From positions 186,001-250,000 of the forward strand of contig NZ_MVBC01000002.1 of NCBI RefSeq assembly GCF_002007105.1: a stretch of 64,000 bases of DNA. The letters run 5' to 3'. The notes beneath the pieces were generated by a model. The model was not told the origin of the DNA. It saw only the letters and a list, made by a program, of their open reading frames with translations, and made no database searches. Shown one piece after another: positions 7,234 to 55,090 of the stretch (position 1 is its first letter; every line of letters starts with the position of its first letter). A program made the translations under genes and the position numbers. This DNA comes from Hymenobacter sp. CRA2. Lineage in GTDB: Bacteria; Bacteroidota; Bacteroidia; Cytophagales; Hymenobacteraceae.

Positions 7234-7450
7234 TGGCAAGGCAGAAGGCGGGCGTACGCCTGCCGGCGGAGCTACCTCCTACGCGTGGCCGGCCCGAATG
7301 GCTGGGTTTCGCTCTCGAAATCGTCCCTGCCAACTGCTCCGCGCTGGGAGCGGTTGGCGCCCGCAGGAAATTTGTTATGCATGTTGCAATAATCGGTGAT
7401 TTTACGTGCCTTGGCGGAATGTTCTCATTCCCAACCCAAAACACCACTTT

Positions 7451-9034
7451 ATGCGCAAGTTTACCCTATACCCCGCCGTGGCTGGCCTGCTGTGGCTGGG
7501 CGCCTGCCAAACCCAGGAGGAACAGCTAGTCCGACCCGAGCCGGCCGCCGCGGGGGAAGCGCTGAGCACTGCCGAGCTGGACGCGCAAATCTGGGCCCGG
7601 GTGCAGCAAAGCGGCAGCTACGACTGGCGCCAGGCCACCGACCACGTAGTTTGGAGCGCCCTGCAACGCTCCGACCAGGTGCTGAGCGTGGGCTACGCCC
7701 CTGCCGGCCATTGCAATCCGAACGAGACGCTACCCGCCAGTGCCGCCGACGATGCAGCTTACGCGCAGGCCCGTGAGCAGGTGCTGGCGCTGATCGTGGC
7801 CAGCGAGCAAGCCGCCGAACCGGCCGTGACGGCCCAGAACGTTCTGGTATTTCAGGAAAGCACGTTGCCGGTGCTCACCGTGCGCGTACGGCAGCTGAGC
7901 ACCGTGCAGCGCCTGCGCCGCTCCGGCCTCGTGCGCTACGCCGAGCCCATGGGTTACGAGCCTTACCACGCCACCGTAGCCAGCCGCACCGCCGCCAGCC
8001 TGAGCAGTAGCGGCTGCGGCAACAACGCCGCCACTGCCGGCCTGGCCGCCGGCTCCGACTACGTGGTGCTCAGCAACGGCAGCAAGTCGTCGTGGAACCA
8101 GGCCGATACCTACCACGGCATCCGCTCGGTCTGGTCGCAGAGCACCGGCCGTGGCGTCAAGATGGTTATCATCGATACGGGCTCGTCTACCGCGCAGGAA
8201 AACCTGGGTTCGGCTTTTAACCAAGGCCTGAGCACGGGCCGCACCATCGAGCGGCTGGTGACGCTACCGCGCAACAGCATCTTCGGCATCCCGTACGGCG
8301 ACGCCGAAACGCCCAACGACGGCTGCGGCCACGGCACCAGCATGGCCGGGGCAGCCGCCGCGCCCCGCGGCACCGACGGCGCCTCTACAGGCATTGCCTA
8401 CAACGCCAATCTCATCACCATCCGCGCCGCCGAGGATGTGTTCCTCGATGCCTCGCGCGAGGTGCAGGGCGTGTCCGATGCCTTCACGCTGGCCGCTGGT
8501 CGCGCCGATGTGCGCATCATCAGCATGAGCATGGGCCGCGTGACCAGCTCCTCCCAAATGGCCGATGCCATTCGGTACGCCTACGCGCGCGGCAAGCTCA
8601 TCTTCTGCGCCGCCGGCACCTCCTTCGATTGGTCGGCGGGCTGGGTGGGCGTCATCTTCCCCGCCAGCATGGCCGAGGCCGTGGCGGTGACGGGCGTAAA
8701 GGACAACCTCACCACCCGCTGCGACGAGTGCCACGTGGGGGCTGACGTGGAGTTTACGGTGGTCATGCAGCGCACCAGCAATAACCTGCGCCCCCTCTCC
8801 CTGGCTATGAGCGGCGACGCGCCCAGCACCGTCGGCGGCTCGTCGGTGTCCACGGCTTCGATGGCGGGCATGGCGGCCGTGGTTTGGAGCCGCTACCCCA
8901 CCGAAACGCGGGAGCAGATCAAAGCCCGCCTGGTAGCGGCCAGCTCCAACGCCACCAGCCGCGACCCGAACTTCGGCTACGGCCGCGTGAACCTGGCCCG
9001 GGCGGTGGGCGCCACTGCCACGCCGCTGCCGTAA
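7451..9034 (+). CDS. lipoprotein subtilisin-like serine protease (S8 family)
   Basis: 527 residues. The N-terminal MRKFTLYPAVAGLLWLGAC is a lipoprotein signal (Cys 19). A propeptide-like region (about 25-190) is followed by the S8 catalytic domain with Asp 242 (VIIDTGSS), His 294 (GCGHGTSMAG) and Ser 470 (STASMAG). The oxyanion-hole motif normally written AAGN reads AAGTSF, so the usual Asn is Thr, and the GTS before the nucleophile is changed to TAS. The protein may be a weak or specialised protease, or the oxyanion hole may be supplied differently. It is probably tethered to the outer or inner membrane. The start at 7451 was chosen over 7406 because it gives a proper lipobox. Confidence 0.85.
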   Translation: MRKFTLYPAVAGLLWLGACQTQEEQLVRPEPAAAGEALSTAELDAQIWARVQQSGSYDWRQATDHVVWSALQRSDQVLSVGYAPAGHCNPNETLPASAADDAAYAQAREQVLALIVASEQAAEPAVTAQNVLVFQESTLPVLTVRVRQLSTVQRLRRSGLVRYAEPMGYEPYHATVASRTAASLSSSGCGNNAATAGLAAGSDYVVLSNGSKSSWNQADTYHGIRSVWSQSTGRGVKMVIIDTGSSTAQENLGSAFNQGLSTGRTIERLVTLPRNSIFGIPYGDAETPNDGCGHGTSMAGAAAAPRGTDGASTGIAYNANLITIRAAEDVFLDASREVQGVSDAFTLAAGRADVRIISMSMGRVTSSSQMADAIRYAYARGKLIFCAAGTSFDWSAGWVGVIFPASMAEAVAVTGVKDNLTTRCDECHVGADVEFTVVMQRTSNNLRPLSLAMSGDAPSTVGGSSVSTASMAGMAAVVWSRYPTETREQIKARLVAASSNATSRDPNFGYGRVNLARAVGATATPLP

Positions 9035-11804: not shown

Positions 11805-12365
11805 ATGCGTACCGTCTGGCTCGTGTTTGGCTCCCTGATGACTCTGCTGCTGGGCGTACTGGCCTGGCAAAACCTGCGCCCCAATGCCCCCGTGCCCGCC
11901 TCCGGCGACCTGCCGCCCGTGCGCGCGGTGGTGTACCGCGCTACCCTGCCCCACCACGCCGCCAACGACCGCGGCGACGAGGTAGTGCGTACGGCGCTGC
12001 GCCAGCTCGGCAAAGCGTACTGCTACGCCGGCACCACGCCCGAGGGCGGCTTCGACTGCTCTGGCTTTTTAACCTACGTCTACAGCCAGTTCGGCATCAA
12101 TGTGCCGCACTCCTCCGCCCTCCAATACCAAACCGGCACGGCCATACCGCGCGCCCAGGCCCGCAAGGGCGACCTGATCATCTTTACCGGCACGGCCCAG
12201 GACGCCGCCACCCCAGGCCACGCGGGCATCGTCATTTCCGAGCCGGGCCAGCCGTTGCGCTTCGTGCATTCATCCTCCTCCAAGCGCGACCCAGGCGTAA
12301 AAATCAGCCAGGTGGACGGCACCGACTACGAACGGCGCTTCCTCGGCATCCGCCGCGTGCTCTGA
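11805..12365 (+). CDS. NlpC/P60 (C40) cell-wall hydrolase
   Basis: 186 residues. An N-terminal signal anchor (MRTVWLVFGSLMTLLLGVLA) is followed by the C40 domain with Cys 85 in GGFDCSGFLTYVY, His 139 in PGHAGIVISE and the third polar residue His 155 in FVHSSSSK. These enzymes cut gamma-D-Glu to diamino-acid bonds in peptidoglycan stem peptides. It has no SH3 or LysM domain, so it is a compact single-domain form. It converges, across a 400-base repeat-bearing gap, with the micropeptide gene at 12768-12839. Confidence 0.92.
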   Translation: MRTVWLVFGSLMTLLLGVLAWQNLRPNAPVPASGDLPPVRAVVYRATLPHHAANDRGDEVVRTALRQLGKAYCYAGTTPEGGFDCSGFLTYVYSQFGINVPHSSALQYQTGTAIPRAQARKGDLIIFTGTAQDAATPGHAGIVISEPGQPLRFVHSSSSKRDPGVKISQVDGTDYERRFLGIRRVL

Positions 12366-12397
12366 AACCATAACGCCCAGACCAGCACAGCTGCACC

Positions 12398-12581
12398 GGC
12401 CGTCATTGCGAGCAACGCGAACCGGAGGTCGACGTAGTCAAGCAATCCTTCCTCTCGCGGCACAAACGGTACAAACAGCACCGTCCGACACCACAGACGC
12501 TGGTTCCGGACGGTGCGGCTCATTTGGTCGGCACGCTGTACAGGACCGATTGCTTCGTCCTTCGTCCTCGCAATGACGGCC
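12398..12581. repeat. 184-bp inverted-repeat element A (REP/MITE-like)
   Basis: The ends are perfect 15-base inverted repeats (GGCCGTCATTGCGAG and CTCGCAATGACGGCC). Just inside them, AGCAATCC and GATTGCTTCG partly pair. The centre holds another hairpin (GCACCGTCCG with CGGACGGTGC). It encodes no protein of its own. The left half (about 60 bases) is closely similar to bases 40737-40795, so this is a dispersed family rather than a unique structure. It lies between the convergent C40 gene and the micropeptide gene. Confidence 0.75.
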
Positions 12582-12619
12582 AGTTGAGCCGCGGCTTAAC
12601 CGAAGCGCGTAGAAACAGC

Positions 12620-12653: not shown

Positions 12654-12767
12654 TAATCCTGGGGCCATCTTACCAAGCGACCGGCCACCGGGGATACCGG
12701 TGCGGCCATCTTAGTTCAGACCTGCCGTAATGCAGGGAAACATACGCTCCCCCGCGACACTTGAGTG

Positions 12768-12839
12768 TTACGCGCGTTCGGCGGTGAAGCGAACGACATT
12801 ACTCAGGCTTGGCAGGATGGATTTGGGACTATCAGACAT
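12768..12839 (-). CDS. 23-residue micropeptide with strong Shine-Dalgarno
   Basis: ATG at 12839 opens a 23-codon frame ending TAA: MSDSPKSILPSLSN then VVRFTAERA. It is preceded by AAAGAAAGGAGGTACAAAATG, a textbook Shine-Dalgarno at ideal spacing, which no other gene in the window has. A promoter (-33 TTTTG, 18 bases, -7 TAACTTTA) lies about 100 bases upstream, leaving a structured leader of about 90 bases. After the stop the same frame continues for 19 codons, with an internal ATG at 12743 giving a ten-residue MFPCITAGLN, to a second TAA. I recognise no family. It may be a leader peptide, a signalling or RiPP-like peptide, or the coding part of a dual-function small RNA. Confidence 0.6.
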   Translation of the reverse strand: MSDSPKSILPSLSNVVRFTAERA

Positions 12840-12935
12840 TTTGTACCTCCTTTCTTTTTGATGAAACATCTCCCGCGGGGGCGCTACCAACAACTTAGGT
12901 CCGCTGGCCGGGGCTGAAGCACTCGCTTCGGTTAC

Positions 12936-12966
12936 TAAAGTTATATCTGGTACGAATGGTTCAAAA
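12936..12966 (-). promoter_or_regulatory. promoter of the micropeptide unit
   Basis: On the minus strand: TTTTG (12966-12962), 18 bases, then TAACTTTA (12943-12936). It fits the Bacteroidota -33/-7 pattern with one mismatch in the -7 box. The predicted transcript start is near 12929. Confidence 0.55.
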
Positions 12967-13133
12967 TAAAAAGCCGGTTTTTTTTAGCCCTGACCGGGTT
13001 TTTCCGCCAGCTATTTGATTTTCAGCACTATTATTTTTAGCCACCCCATCCTACCGCCCCTTTGCTCCCGAGCTTGGTACGTTACTTGATTTAGTGGCGG
13101 CGCGTCGTTTGTTGCGGCGTCAAGTTGCTTTTG

Positions 13134-13141
13134 TATATTTT
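13134..13141 (+). promoter_or_regulatory. -7-like box TATATTTT upstream of the first DUF2147 gene
   Basis: One mismatch to TAnnTTTG. A TTTG at 13108-13111 lies 22 bases upstream as a possible -33 element. It leaves a leader of about 30 bases before the ATG at 13176. Confidence 0.4.
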
Positions 13142-13175
13142 CCGCCACCAACCTCATTCCCATACCCTCCTACTC

Positions 13176-13613
13176 ATGAAAAGACTCCTCCTGTGCCTCG
13201 TCGTGTTGCTCGGCCTGGCCGGTGCGGCCTCCGCCCAAAGCCTCTCGCCGCTGGGCGTGTGGACCAACAGCGAGAAGAAAGCGACGTTCGAGATTTACAA
13301 GTGCGGCGATAAGCTGTGCGGCAAAATCGTGACGCTGGCCGTGCCCAACGACCCGGCTACGGGCAAACCCAAAACCGACAGCCAGAACCCCGATCCGAAG
13401 CTGCGCAACCGCCCGCGCATGGGCCTCGTGTTTATGCGCGACTTCGAGTACGACGGCGACAATAAGTGGGACGATGGCAAAATCTACGACCCCGAAAACG
13501 GCAAAGAGTACTCCTGCTACATGAAAATGCTCAACGCCAACACGATGGAGGTAAAAGGCTACATCGGCTTTTCCCTCATCGGCCGCTCGCAGACGTGGAC
13601 GCGCGTGAAATAG
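13176..13613 (+). CDS. exported DUF2147 protein, copy 1
   Basis: 145 residues. A signal peptide (MKRLLLCLVVLLGLAGAASAQ) is followed by a single DUF2147 domain: SPLGVWTNSEKKATFEIYKC, then CGKIVTL, QNPDPKLRNRP, GKIYDPENGKEYSCYMKM and VKGYIGFSLIGRSQTWTRV. The family is a small periplasmic beta-barrel with a conserved GVW start and GYIGF end; its function is unknown. Two Cys (KCGDKLCG) probably form a disulfide. The longer frame from 13125 was rejected because the ATG at 13176 gives the signal peptide. A paralog follows 124 bases downstream. Confidence 0.9.
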   Translation: MKRLLLCLVVLLGLAGAASAQSLSPLGVWTNSEKKATFEIYKCGDKLCGKIVTLAVPNDPATGKPKTDSQNPDPKLRNRPRMGLVFMRDFEYDGDNKWDDGKIYDPENGKEYSCYMKMLNANTMEVKGYIGFSLIGRSQTWTRVK

Positions 13614-13737: not shown

Positions 13738-14193
13738 TTGTTTTTTCTGCGTTACCTGCTCCTGCCGCTGCTCCTCCTGCTTGGCGCTCCGGCGGCCCGT
13801 GCTCAAACCGGTGCACCCGATGCCCCGCCCCTCGGCGTGTGGACGGACGAGCAAGGCGAAACCCAAGTAGAGCTGTACCGCTGCGGCGAACAGCTCTGCG
13901 GCCGCATTGTGCAGCTGCTGCACGGCACCGATGCCGAGGGCAAGCCCCGCCTCGACGTGCACAACCCCGACCCGAAACGGCGCACCCAGCCGCACGTGGG
14001 CCTGACCATCATTCAGGATTTGCACTTCAACCCCGACGAAAAGCGCTGGGACGGCGGCCAGATCTACGACCCGGACAACGGCCGGACCTACTCCTGCTAC
14101 GTGCGTCCGCTGACGGGCGACCGGCTGGAAGTCAAAGGCTACATCGGGTTTGCCCTCGTGGGCCGCGCGCAAGTGTGGAAACGCGTGCGTTAA
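13738..14193 (+). CDS. exported DUF2147 protein, copy 2
   Basis: 151 residues, paralogous to the previous gene over the whole mature domain (PPLGVWTDEQGE, CGEQLCGRIVQL, NPDPKRRTQP, IYDPDNGRTYSCYV, VKGYIGFALVGRAQVWKRV). The only start that keeps the signal peptide (FFLRYLLLPLLLLLGAPAARA) is TTG at 13738; an in-frame stop lies shortly upstream and no ATG or GTG intervenes. TACTTTAG near 13706 may be its -7 box. Function unknown; the copies differ most in the charged loop between the two conserved halves. Confidence 0.88.
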   Translation: MFFLRYLLLPLLLLLGAPAARAQTGAPDAPPLGVWTDEQGETQVELYRCGEQLCGRIVQLLHGTDAEGKPRLDVHNPDPKRRTQPHVGLTIIQDLHFNPDEKRWDGGQIYDPDNGRTYSCYVRPLTGDRLEVKGYIGFALVGRAQVWKRVR

Positions 14194-40733: not shown

Positions 40734-40925
40734 GCCGGCCGTCATACCAAGCGCACCGAACCGAAGGTCGAAGTTGCCAAGCATCTCGCGGGTGTGGTTG
40801 AACCACTTGAAAAAGGTAGTCATGTCGAGCTTGTCGAGACATCTCGTGTGCCGACTCTTGGTAGTAACCCCACTCGTTCAACGACGAAATTACTATTCAG
40901 CGAGATGTCTCGACAAGCTCGACAT
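40734..40925. repeat. inverted-repeat element C with half copy of element A
   Basis: Bases 40737-40795 match the left half of repeat A closely (CCGGCCGTCATNCNNAGC, then GAACCGNAGGTCGAAGT). Next come perfect 25-base inverted arms at 40822-40846 and 40901-40925 (ATGTCGAGCTTGTCGAGACATCTCG and complement) with 54 bases between. No protein is encoded. It lies between a small membrane protein gene and the convergent M28 peptidase gene. Confidence 0.75.
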
Positions 40926-40950: not shown

Positions 40951-42345
40951 CTACAGCCCGTACTTGCTCAGCAGGTAGATCAACGAGGCCATGCCGGCGC
41001 CGCCCAGCTCCAGCTCGCGGCGGTGCACTTTGTCGAAGGTGTCGGCGGCGGTGTGGTGGATGTCGAAGTAGCGCTGCGAGTCGCAGTCGTAGCCGATCAG
41101 CGCCGTGGCTTGGCCTTTCAGCGGGCCAATATCGGTGCCGCCGTGGCCGGCCGCAATGTCGCCGGCGTGGTAGGGCGCCAGCAGCGGAGCCCACTGCTGC
41201 ACCTTGGCTACGGTGGCCGGCGAGGCGGCTTCTACCCCGAAGCCGCGGGGCGTGAAGCCGCCGCCGTCGGACTCAATGGCGGCCACGTGCTTCTCGCCGG
41301 CGGCTTTGGCCAGCTCAGCGTACTTGATGCCGCCGCGGTTGCCGTTTTCCTCGTTTATGAAGAGCACGGCGCGCACGGTGCGCTCGGGGCGCAGGCCGGT
41401 GGCCAGCAGCAGGCGCAGGGCCTCCATGCTCTGCACGCAGCCGGTGCCGTCGTCGTGGGCACCCTGGGCCAGGTCCCAGGAATCGAGGTGGCCGCCCACG
41501 GTGATGATTTCGTTGGGGTACTTCGAGCCCTTCACCTCCCCTACCACGTTATAGGATTTCACGTCGGGCAGGGTCTGGCAGGCCATTTCCAGCTCAAACT
41601 CCACCGCGGGGTTCTGCTTCAGCTCAGCGCTGAGGCGGTCGGCGGCCAGGGTACTGAGAGCCGCGGCCGGAATCTTGGTCACTTTGTCGTCGTAGCGGGT
41701 GGTGCCGGTGTGCGGGTTGTCGTCCTTGGCCGAAGTCATGGAGCGCACCAGGGCCCCCACAGCGCCGCGCTTGGCGGCCTCTACCGGGCCGCGGCCGCGC
41801 TGATCCACGGCCCCGCTGTAGGCCCCACCCGGCTCGATGAGCTTGTCGTCGAAGGGGCGGTTGAAGAACACAAACTTGCCCTTCACCTGCGCGTCGGGCA
41901 GCTTGGCCAGCTCGTCCCAGCTGCGCACCTCCACCACCTGGGCCTTGAGCTTGCCACTGGTGCCCACCGAGCCGCCGAGCGCGCACAGGGCCACGTTCTG
42001 GGCTTTGCCTTTGGGGGCCTTGAAGCTGCCTTTTTCCTTGGCGCCGCGCACCCAGTGCGGCACCATCACCTCCTGCAGGTACACGCGGTCGAAGCCCAGC
42101 TTTTCCATGGTTTGCTTGCCCCACTGCACGGCCTGCTCGGCCTGCGGCGAGCCGCTCAGGCGCGGGCCGATGTTCTGGCAGAGGTAGCGCAGGTTGTCGT
42201 AGCTCTGCCCGCGCAGCAAGGCTTCGTCGTAGATTTTGCGCAGGTTCAGCGAGTCGGTTTTGGCGGCGGTCTGGGCGTGGGCGGGTGCGGCCAGCGCGGC
42301 GGCGAGCAGCAGGCCGGCGGCCGCAGTGCGGAGGTGGTGGAGCAT
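40951..42345 (-). CDS. secreted M28-family metallopeptidase
   Basis: 464 residues. The signal peptide MLHHLRTAAAGLLLAAALAA to AHAQ is followed by a PA insert region (PAEVRSWDELAKLP-like stretch) and the M28 catalytic domain with GGHLDSWDLAQGAHDDGTG (His and bridging Asp ligands), FINEENGNRGGIKYAEL (catalytic Glu and ligand), ESDGGGFTPRGF and HHTAADTFDKV (final His). Enzymes of this group are aminopeptidases or dipeptidases, and plasma glutamate carboxypeptidase is a close relative in layout. It is exported. The ATG at 42345 was chosen for the signal peptide. Confidence 0.92.
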   Translation of the reverse strand: MLHHLRTAAAGLLLAAALAAPAHAQTAAKTDSLNLRKIYDEALLRGQSYDNLRYLCQNIGPRLSGSPQAEQAVQWGKQTMEKLGFDRVYLQEVMVPHWVRGAKEKGSFKAPKGKAQNVALCALGGSVGTSGKLKAQVVEVRSWDELAKLPDAQVKGKFVFFNRPFDDKLIEPGGAYSGAVDQRGRGPVEAAKRGAVGALVRSMTSAKDDNPHTGTTRYDDKVTKIPAAALSTLAADRLSAELKQNPAVEFELEMACQTLPDVKSYNVVGEVKGSKYPNEIITVGGHLDSWDLAQGAHDDGTGCVQSMEALRLLLATGLRPERTVRAVLFINEENGNRGGIKYAELAKAAGEKHVAAIESDGGGFTPRGFGVEAASPATVAKVQQWAPLLAPYHAGDIAAGHGGTDIGPLKGQATALIGYDCDSQRYFDIHHTAADTFDKVHRRELELGGAGMASLIYLLSKYGL

Positions 42346-54322: not shown

Positions 54323-55090
54323 ATGTTAAGAACCGAACTCCGCAAGCTGCTGCCCTACCGCACCGCCTGGATTATTCTGCTGTTGTTTACGGGCCTGCTA
54401 GCCGCCACGGTGGCCGGTGCGGGCAGCGTCAATGTCAACGGTTAGCAGCTGGGCCAGGCGCTGTACGCGCTGCCGGGGCTGTGGACCAATTTGGTGTACA
54501 TCGCCGGGTATTTTTCCCTGCTGCCGGCCTTTCTGCTCATCATGCTCCTCACCGATGAGTTTCAGTACCGCACGCTGCGCCAGCAGGTTATCGACGGGGC
54601 CTCGCGTGGGCAGTGGGTGCTCGACAAGCTGCTGGTAGCCCTGCTGCTCACGGCCTGGGGCATGCTGTCGGTGCTGCTGGTAGGCGTGTTTTTTGGCCTG
54701 ACGCGCACGCCCGACGCCTCCTTCGGCGCCGTGCTGGCGGCCGCGCCCCGGCCCCTGCTGCTCTACGCGGCGCAGTTGCTGGGCTACTTGTCCTTGGCCG
54801 CGCTGCTAGCCCTGCTCATCCGCAAGAGCACGCCGGCCATCGTAGCACTGCTGCTTTACGTGTGGGTGGTGGAGCGGCTGATTCGCTACTTTCTACCCGA
54901 CGCCATCGACCGGTTTCTGCCCGTCAAGGCCCTGGATATTCTCACACCCTCGCCTTTTGCCCAGACGCTCGATACCGTGCTGGGGCCCAGCGGCGCCCTG
55001 TTGCCCGGTCAGGCCGTACTGGTGGCCCTGGGTTACGCGGCGCTTTTTTGGCTGTTGAGCCTCGCGTGGATACGCACCCGCGACCTATAG
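54323..55090 (+). pseudogene. ABC transporter permease interrupted by an amber codon
   Basis: ATG 54323 starts MLRTELRKLLPYRTAWIILLLF and reads in frame to TAG at 54443-54445, then continues in the same frame (LGQALYALPGLWTNLVYIAG, FLLIMLLTDEFQYRTLRQQV, SLAALLALLIRKSTPAIVAL) to the stop at 55088-55090. Removing the amber gives 255 residues with five to six spans, the usual size of an ABC-2 type permease partner. The context NVNG-Q-QLGQALY suggests a CAG-to-TAG change. It may be a sequencing error, a recent null mutation or a readthrough product; the upstream ATPase looks intact. Confidence 0.8.

Follow-up and report, generated by a model that had tools for sequence, protein, structure and literature searches.

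A gene for a small structured RNA lies on the minus strand of the window (the whole 64,000-nucleotide stretch of Hymenobacter sp. CRA2 DNA analysed here), from 12966 to about 12620; the ends predicted from the sequence give an RNA of ~310 nt. The gene is standalone and contains, in order, a promoter, a folded 5' domain, an extended Shine-Dalgarno (SD) sequence, a 23-codon open reading frame (ORF) and a terminator-like hairpin. A preliminary description had noted a micropeptide gene with a well-placed SD at this position; the observation is confirmed as real and is larger than first described. The RNA family and its fold are well supported by comparison among relatives, and we infer a ribosome-sensing role for the RNA.

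The gene and its surroundings

The promoter (12935-12966, minus strand), which is of the Bacteroidota type, has a -33 element TTTTG at 12966-12962 and a -7 element TATAACTTTAG at 12945-12935, beginning TATAACTTTA at 12945. Both elements are found where the preliminary description had placed a promoter, and the alignment keeps them in relatives. The hairpin that had been noted near the end of the unit is likewise present (12653-12620, minus strand) and, in a single-sequence fold, resembles an intrinsic terminator; the T-run after its stem is present in the relatives printed and short in the window's own copy. As a single sequence, 12936-12618 folds more stably than 100 of 100 shuffles (z -5.0).

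Conservation was profiled as mean pairwise identity over 74 distinct sequences from the window's genus and Hymenobacter-type units. Identity is 0.95 in ORF codons 1-12, 0.87 in codons 13-24, 0.85 in the spacer and SD, 0.87 in the 3' strand of the long-range helix P4 (described below) and 0.74 in the promoter, and it drops outside the promoter and terminator, to 0.41 in the upstream flank and 0.26 in the downstream flank. A chance frame can be rejected given this profile and the occurrence of the unit in 204 of 204 genomes of the family, as the preliminary description had anticipated; its wording 'small RNA or peptide' also holds. A known RNA family was ruled out with Rfam 15, which gives no match at the gathering score for the window and for 16 loci, and six matches, all below gathering, at a permissive threshold (E up to 10). 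No published description of the RNA was found in the titles and abstract openings of open-licence papers.

The neighbouring genes lie outside the RNA. Downstream and convergent is an NlpC/P60 protein (11805-12365, plus strand; PF00877, 3.8e-20); upstream and divergent is a DUF2147 protein (13125-13613, plus strand; PF09917, 1.6e-40). Of the 134 Hymenobacteraceae-type units (among 168, sorted by peptide), 128 have a DUF2147 homologue upstream in divergent orientation and 125 have an NlpC/P60 homologue downstream in convergent orientation, counts limited by the locus ends; neither homologue was found alongside the other 34 units. Because its neighbours are convergent and divergent, the gene is standalone in Hymenobacteraceae, and for these units a cis leader is rejected on the same orientation. 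The window also holds a DUF2147 tandem pair (13125-13613 and 13738-14193, plus strand; PF09917) and a repeat-like element adjoining the RNA (12380-12600), of which a 77.6% identical piece lies at 40735-40783. A tRNA-Thr called by ARAGORN (8289-8376, minus strand) lies opposite a long ORF, protease-like by eye (7406-9034), and is probably a false call.

The Shine-Dalgarno sequence and the hidden anti-SD

The extended SD, AGAAAGGAGGU (12845-12855, minus strand), is complementary to the 3' end of the genome's own 16S rRNA. Since that tail ends ...GGATCACCTCCTTTCT, the pairing is 11 bp long here (-17.4 kcal/mol) and 12 bp long in relatives with a G after the SD; an extended-SD mRNA read by bS21-less ribosomes would be expected to pair over at least 9 bp at the correct spacing, as this one does. 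The AAGGAGG reported in the preliminary description is well placed, AGAAAGGAGGT at 12855-12845 being 5 nt ahead of the ATG at 12839. The SD is identical in 166 of 168 distinct units (the pattern that picked this set allows few changes in the SD). In L149, a copy whose genome is 75% complete, most of the SD is gone. Consensus folds leave the SD only moderately open, with an unpaired fraction of 0.19-0.60 across the 8 groups (of 9) for which it was computed. Alignment A3 (47 sequences) also shows an almost invariant AUGU motif ~9-10 nt upstream of the SD, with no explained partner.

The SD had been described as unique in the window, which is correct for the full motif and not for its shorter cores: AAAGGAGG has a start codon 3-9 nt downstream at a single place in the 64 kb, but AAGGAGG occurs twice (the second heading a 48-aa frame at 54708), AGGAGG seven times (once ahead of a candidate start of a 370-aa frame at 42063, minus strand) and GGAGG 23 times (five ahead of candidate starts of frames of at least 60 aa). 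The frame at 42063 is possibly another SD-bearing gene. In the 5.88-Mb genome, AAAGGAGGN{3,9}ATG is found 6 times, against 21 times for a reversed-pattern control; the other five sites head frames of 23-42 aa, and two of them fall within one palindromic element (G000:C11:536222-536269, L081) that carries AAAGGAGGAGTGAAGAATG on both arms. In two genomes of another family, a 200-aa frame that is sigma-factor-like by eye has AAAGGAGGT before its start (L161, L162), another possible SD-using gene in Bacteroidia.

According to PMC9976891, the anti-SD of Bacteroidia is intact and hidden in a pocket of bS21, bS18 and bS6, so that ordinary ribosomes fail on SDs; ribosomes without bS21 regain the anti-SD and translate rpsU in Flavobacterium. 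The same paper reports an extended SD for rpsU in ~80% of Flavobacteriales and only ~20% of Cytophagales, and describes few genes, chiefly rpsU, as known to exploit the hidden anti-SD. Strong translation, which the preliminary description had read from the SD, does not follow if ordinary ribosomes hide their anti-SD as that account states; because they fail to use SDs, the extended SD more probably signifies conditional translation.

An extended SD is absent from rpsU in all 17 genomes checked, 14 of them RNA carriers, and the best 16S pairing of rpsU in these genomes is -6.9 kcal/mol, against -17.4 for the SD of the RNA. Thus, the bacteria of these 17 genomes do not seem to use the Flavobacterium rpsU circuit in its usual form. 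The absence does not separate carriers from non-carriers, since it is shared by the three genomes without a model match. As pairing targets of the RNA, rpsU leaders were the ones tried, and over 14 genomes they give no average excess over shuffles (mean z 0.18; z -2.0 in the window's own genome). The RNA does not encode bS21; its frame has 18-23 codons, and rpsU lies elsewhere, for example on G000:C11.

Distribution

A DNA search finds the unit in all 8 genomes searched from the window's genus, the window's own genome among them, and in 133 of 200 Hymenobacteraceae. The covariance model R1 describes the 5' part and was made from 27 units, with the SD included. It matches all 204 Hymenobacteraceae genomes, from all six genera, with a weakest best E of 1.4e-6; there is one match in 201 of these genomes and two in the other three. 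The two copies in G198 (contig C110, 12913 and 178076) are on one contig in opposite orientation, and second matches also occur in G126 and G045.

With R1 at E up to 1, matches are returned for 93 of the 291 genomes in a sample of the order: 45 from the family, 9 others at E <=3.1e-4 and 39 weaker. All nine, out of 246 non-family genomes, read as the same kind of unit, L149 with its damaged SD included; one of the 39 weaker matches was read (L150) and is a false positive. A pattern scan of named genomes yields 91 stretches, and 89 hold up when their ORF length and 3' pairing are checked; L249 (a chance match) and L255 (no pairing found) do not. Carriers among the 80 listed by name include Pontibacter, Rufibacter, Adhaeribacter, Chryseolinea and Ohtaekwangia, as well as Rhodocytophaga, Nafulsella, Marivirga and Anditalea. 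What reads as the same kind of unit therefore occurs in Cytophagales besides Hymenobacteraceae.

In a second order, 5 of 22 genomes carry the unit (all five were read), and one genome of a further family has a similar unit (L270). Searching the class with a second model, R2, gives matches in 25 of 395 genomes, of which 4 are Hymenobacteraceae; those in G802, G745, G478, G765 and G532 read as units, and nine matches are unread. The R2 matches in G636 and G791 are starts of a 200-aa frame, and weaker R2 places (L273, L274, L275, L280, L281) are, on reading, not units. An exact-motif search of the class hits 11 of 395 genomes, three with real units of the same family, the other places reading as something else; it misses the window's own genome because codon 3 differs from the pattern. 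A search of the order with the peptide (E up to 10) matches 71 of 291 genomes, with 36 matches at E <=1.7e-5, all in the family, and the remainder at 0.02 or weaker. These searches sample the class rather than exhaust it, and their negatives are weak because the models were built on known units.

The reading frame

The micro-ORF (MSDSPKSILPSLSNVVRFTAERA; 12768-12839, minus strand) has 23 codons and a stop, beginning at ATG 12839 as first described. Its length is 18-23 codons in 168 of 168 distinct units, compared with 4-42 for the +1 frame and 1-2 for the +2 frame. The set was chosen by SD/start patterns, and L174 was left out because it is too close to its locus end. As units and anchors were picked by SD/start and GGATT patterns, the constancy of the SD, start and P4 anchors is partly due to selection of the set; 71 of 73 loci found with R1, itself built with the SD included, fit the SD/start pattern.

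The SD, the start and the 18-23-codon frame persist, whereas the peptide diverges between genera, which share MS(S/N)P only. Changes counted by parsimony at the three codon positions are 22/13/40 in the 74 Hymenobacter-type and window-genus units and 0/1/6 in 14 Rufibacter units, a third-position excess in both cases. Two Pontibacter-type sets, which also include two Adhaeribacter units and the Marivirga unit, show no bias (35/37/35 in 29 units, 26/17/24 in 10), nor does the upstream non-coding stretch of the first set of 74 units (214/190/203). The alignment contains 3-nt indels that keep the frame and a Ser codon changed from AGT to TCG, and in some Chryseolinea-type units the C-terminal frame shifts, by eye, with nearby nucleotides kept. 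Pfam has no match for the two peptides tried.

The third-position excess points to some selection on the peptide in Hymenobacter-type units and Rufibacter. On the alignments, the frame is kept, and conservation of the peptide appears limited to some genera and partly explained by base pairing; we take the two together to mean that what is selected is the act of translating or initiating, and in some lineages the peptide may have a function. The term 'micropeptide gene' is half supported: the peptide is not the same from genus to genus, and part of the nucleotide conservation is accounted for by RNA structure. The internal ATG at 12743, also pointed out in the preliminary description, is in frame and opens 10 codons, but it is absent from the Hymenobacter-type rows of the alignment shown; a second internal peptide was dropped, since none of the rows seen from outside the window's genus conserves it.

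The RNA fold

The 5' end of the RNA forms hairpin P1, GAAGC-GAGU-GCUUC (12916-12929, minus strand), every cell of which is paired throughout alignment A2 (27 sequences); of the five pairs, one has two-sided changes and three never vary. In the adjoining P2/P3 domain (12867-12915, minus strand), which covaries in A2, two-sided changes are found in 6 of 7 P2 pairs and 2 of 3 P3 pairs. For P1-P3 together, the covariation score (0.469 against 0.163 shuffled), the share of paired cells (94.2% against 76.6%) and the number of cells with two-sided changes (71 against 26.6) are each matched by 0 of 500 shuffles, and shifting the partners by 1-3 columns lowers the covariation score to at most 0.126. 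Two further measures are weak: pairs with a two-sided change (9 against 7.2, reached in 10 of 500 shuffles) and further pair types (21 against 20.2, reached in 204 of 500).

P4 is a long-range helix between ORF codons 3-12 and the strand directly before the terminator. In the window its 5' strand covers codons 4-11 (12807-12830, minus strand), pairing with 12678-12655, and its 3' strand is GCUUGGUAAGAUGGCCCCAGGAUU (12655-12678, minus strand). The helix begins with ORF nt 7 in 94 units and with nt 10 in 74. Its strands change together: CCAUC..CCAAGC with GCUUGG..GAUGG in the window's genus, CAAAUC..CCAAGC with GCUUGG..GAUUUG in Hymenobacter-type units and AAAUG/CAUUU in Rufibacter. Over 12 groups, two of them single-sequence, strands from the same group pair at -19.5 kcal/mol on average and swapped strands at -11.7; 0 of 20000 permutations are as low, and no partner beats the own strand in 10 of 12 rows and in 10 of 12 columns. 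Fitting of the anchors, and of the registers per group, together with the choice of the best-pairing GGATT, flatters the own values somewhat; in fixed registers 0.89 of pairs form with own strands and 0.76 with swapped ones. Consensus folds recover P4 in the window's genus, Hymenobacter-type, Adh-b, f5, Pon-K, Rufibacter and Cesiribacter-like groups and partially in Pon-S; it is not recovered in the consensus fold of the Chryseolinea-type group. P4 thus co-evolves between groups, and P1-P3 covary.

A further hairpin, over the last ORF codons (12776-12794, minus strand), is a reading of the sequences by eye. It is GUUCG/CGAAC here and GUCCG/CGGAC or GUAC/GUAC in relatives, and its pair changes switch residue 21 between E, G and V. 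A toggle in which ACCUC after the stop would cover the SD was dropped; by eye it is present in Chryseolinea-type units and absent in Hymenobacter-type units.

A possible mechanism and its alternatives

The reading that we favour, tentatively and with real reservations, is that of a riboregulator, structured and standalone, which takes its conformation from ribosomes whose anti-SD is exposed. While the RNA is closed, P4 would lock the start of the ORF to the 3' end of the RNA, with the SD and start codon just outside the helix. Ordinary 30S subunits containing bS21 would not pair with the SD. Subunits without bS21, the known case of a free 16S tail, or with the tail free for another reason, would anneal over 11-12 bp and then initiate. 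An initiating ribosome would sit on the first P4 pairs and, as it elongates, would open the remainder of P4 and the ORF-end hairpin; the 3' strand might thereby be freed, or the stability of the RNA changed. In this way the RNA could report or buffer the pool of SD-competent ribosomes. Because the 30S initiation footprint includes ORF nt 7 and 10, where P4 starts, an RNA on which a ribosome initiates should not be able to keep P4 complete, and the loaded and closed forms should be mutually exclusive. Bacteroidia ribosomes of the ordinary kind do not use SDs, so a loaded RNA should be a sign of ribosomes whose 16S tail is free.

The riboregulator is favoured by the model matches throughout the family, by an SD that complements the own 16S tail of a genome where the motif is rarer than its reversed control (6 against 21), by the co-evolution of P4 and covariation of P1-P3, by the persistence of SD, start and frame length while the peptide diverges and Pontibacter-type units lack codon bias, by the absence of an extended SD from rpsU in 17 of 17 genomes, and by neighbours whose orientation argues against a cis leader. 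Counting against it are the lack of mean pairing with rpsU leaders, the third-position excess in Hymenobacter-type units and Rufibacter, the moderate openness of the SD, the absence of P4 from the Chryseolinea-type consensus fold, the two weak covariation measures of five for P1-P3, and the mostly lost SD of L149. A bolder proposal, which we consider somewhat more doubtful, is that this is a widespread Bacteroidia RNA class reading ribosome composition: only ribosomes without bS21 would translate the micro-ORF, and the act of translation, not the peptide, would switch the closed form to an open one that regulates other genes or ribosome assembly.

The same features allow other readings. Were the RNA a micropeptide gene or dual-function RNA, with an acting peptide of 18-23 aa whose synthesis is regulated by the structure, then the constant frame length, the in-frame indels and serine codon swap, and the third-position excess in Hymenobacter-type units and Rufibacter would be as expected. 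However, genera have nothing in common beyond MS(S/N)P, Pontibacter-type units lack codon-position bias, some Chryseolinea-type frames shift with nearby nucleotides kept (by eye), residue 21 tracks a base pair and neither peptide tried has a Pfam match; we consider this reading unlikely, if still a serious competitor. That the constant parts are the extended SD and the RNA fold rather than the peptide would also suit a trans-acting small RNA in which the SD is only a 30S anchor or anti-SD decoy and the ORF is incidental. A decoy needs neither a start at normal spacing nor a stop after 18-23 codons, yet both are found in 168 of 168 units (a set partly chosen by start and SD), and this reading too appears rather improbable.

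The return of the 3' strand to the start of a tiny ORF recalls a self-limiting mRNA of the type I toxin kind, with a hok-like fold-back; but the peptides are polar by eye and divergent, and 201 of 204 family genomes have a single match, which leaves such a toxin very improbable. A short ORF adjoining a terminator-like hairpin could also suggest a leader or attenuator of a neighbouring gene. We give this almost no credence, as the downstream neighbour is convergent (125 of 134) and the upstream one divergent (128 of 134) in Hymenobacteraceae-type units, and the RNA has its own promoter-like sequence.

If the riboregulator reading is true, it is a second use of the hidden anti-SD, by a family-wide, co-evolving RNA that carries an extended SD in genomes where rpsU has none, and it offers a concrete way to ask whether Bacteroidia use specialised ribosomes as a signal. 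A strong ribosome docking site on a fold-back RNA, in bacteria that seldom rely on one, suggests a sensor of an unusual kind of ribosome. The unit also represents an RNA family that Rfam does not match; an ORF of 18-23 codons is probably too short for usual gene calling.

Comparison with known systems

Dual-function RNAs such as RNAIII/hld and SgrS/SgrT are, like this one, structured standalone RNAs with a micro-ORF, and conserved RNA structure outside the ORF is found here as well (P4, P1-P3). Those systems are from other phyla, access to a hidden anti-SD is not part of them, and the peptide here is not conserved across genera. tmRNA, too, is structured, with folded ends on either side of a short ORF, but the present RNA has its own SD and start codon and a terminator-like 3' end; ARAGORN reports no tmRNA for the window and no gene at all for the loci of 12 relatives, and a tRNA-like part was not found. 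The hok-type mRNAs, known for fold-back inhibition, similarly pair their 3' part back to the translation start region; here, in contrast, the SD is outside the helix and the peptide is no evident hydrophobic toxin. With the rpsU (bS21) mRNA of Flavobacteriales, described in PMC9976891 as autoregulated through its extended SD by bS21-less ribosomes, the RNA shares an extended SD pairing over ~9-13 bp with the 16S tail, a host in the anti-SD-hiding class and transcription of its own; unlike that mRNA, it carries a frame of 18-23 codons within a structured RNA, not bS21.
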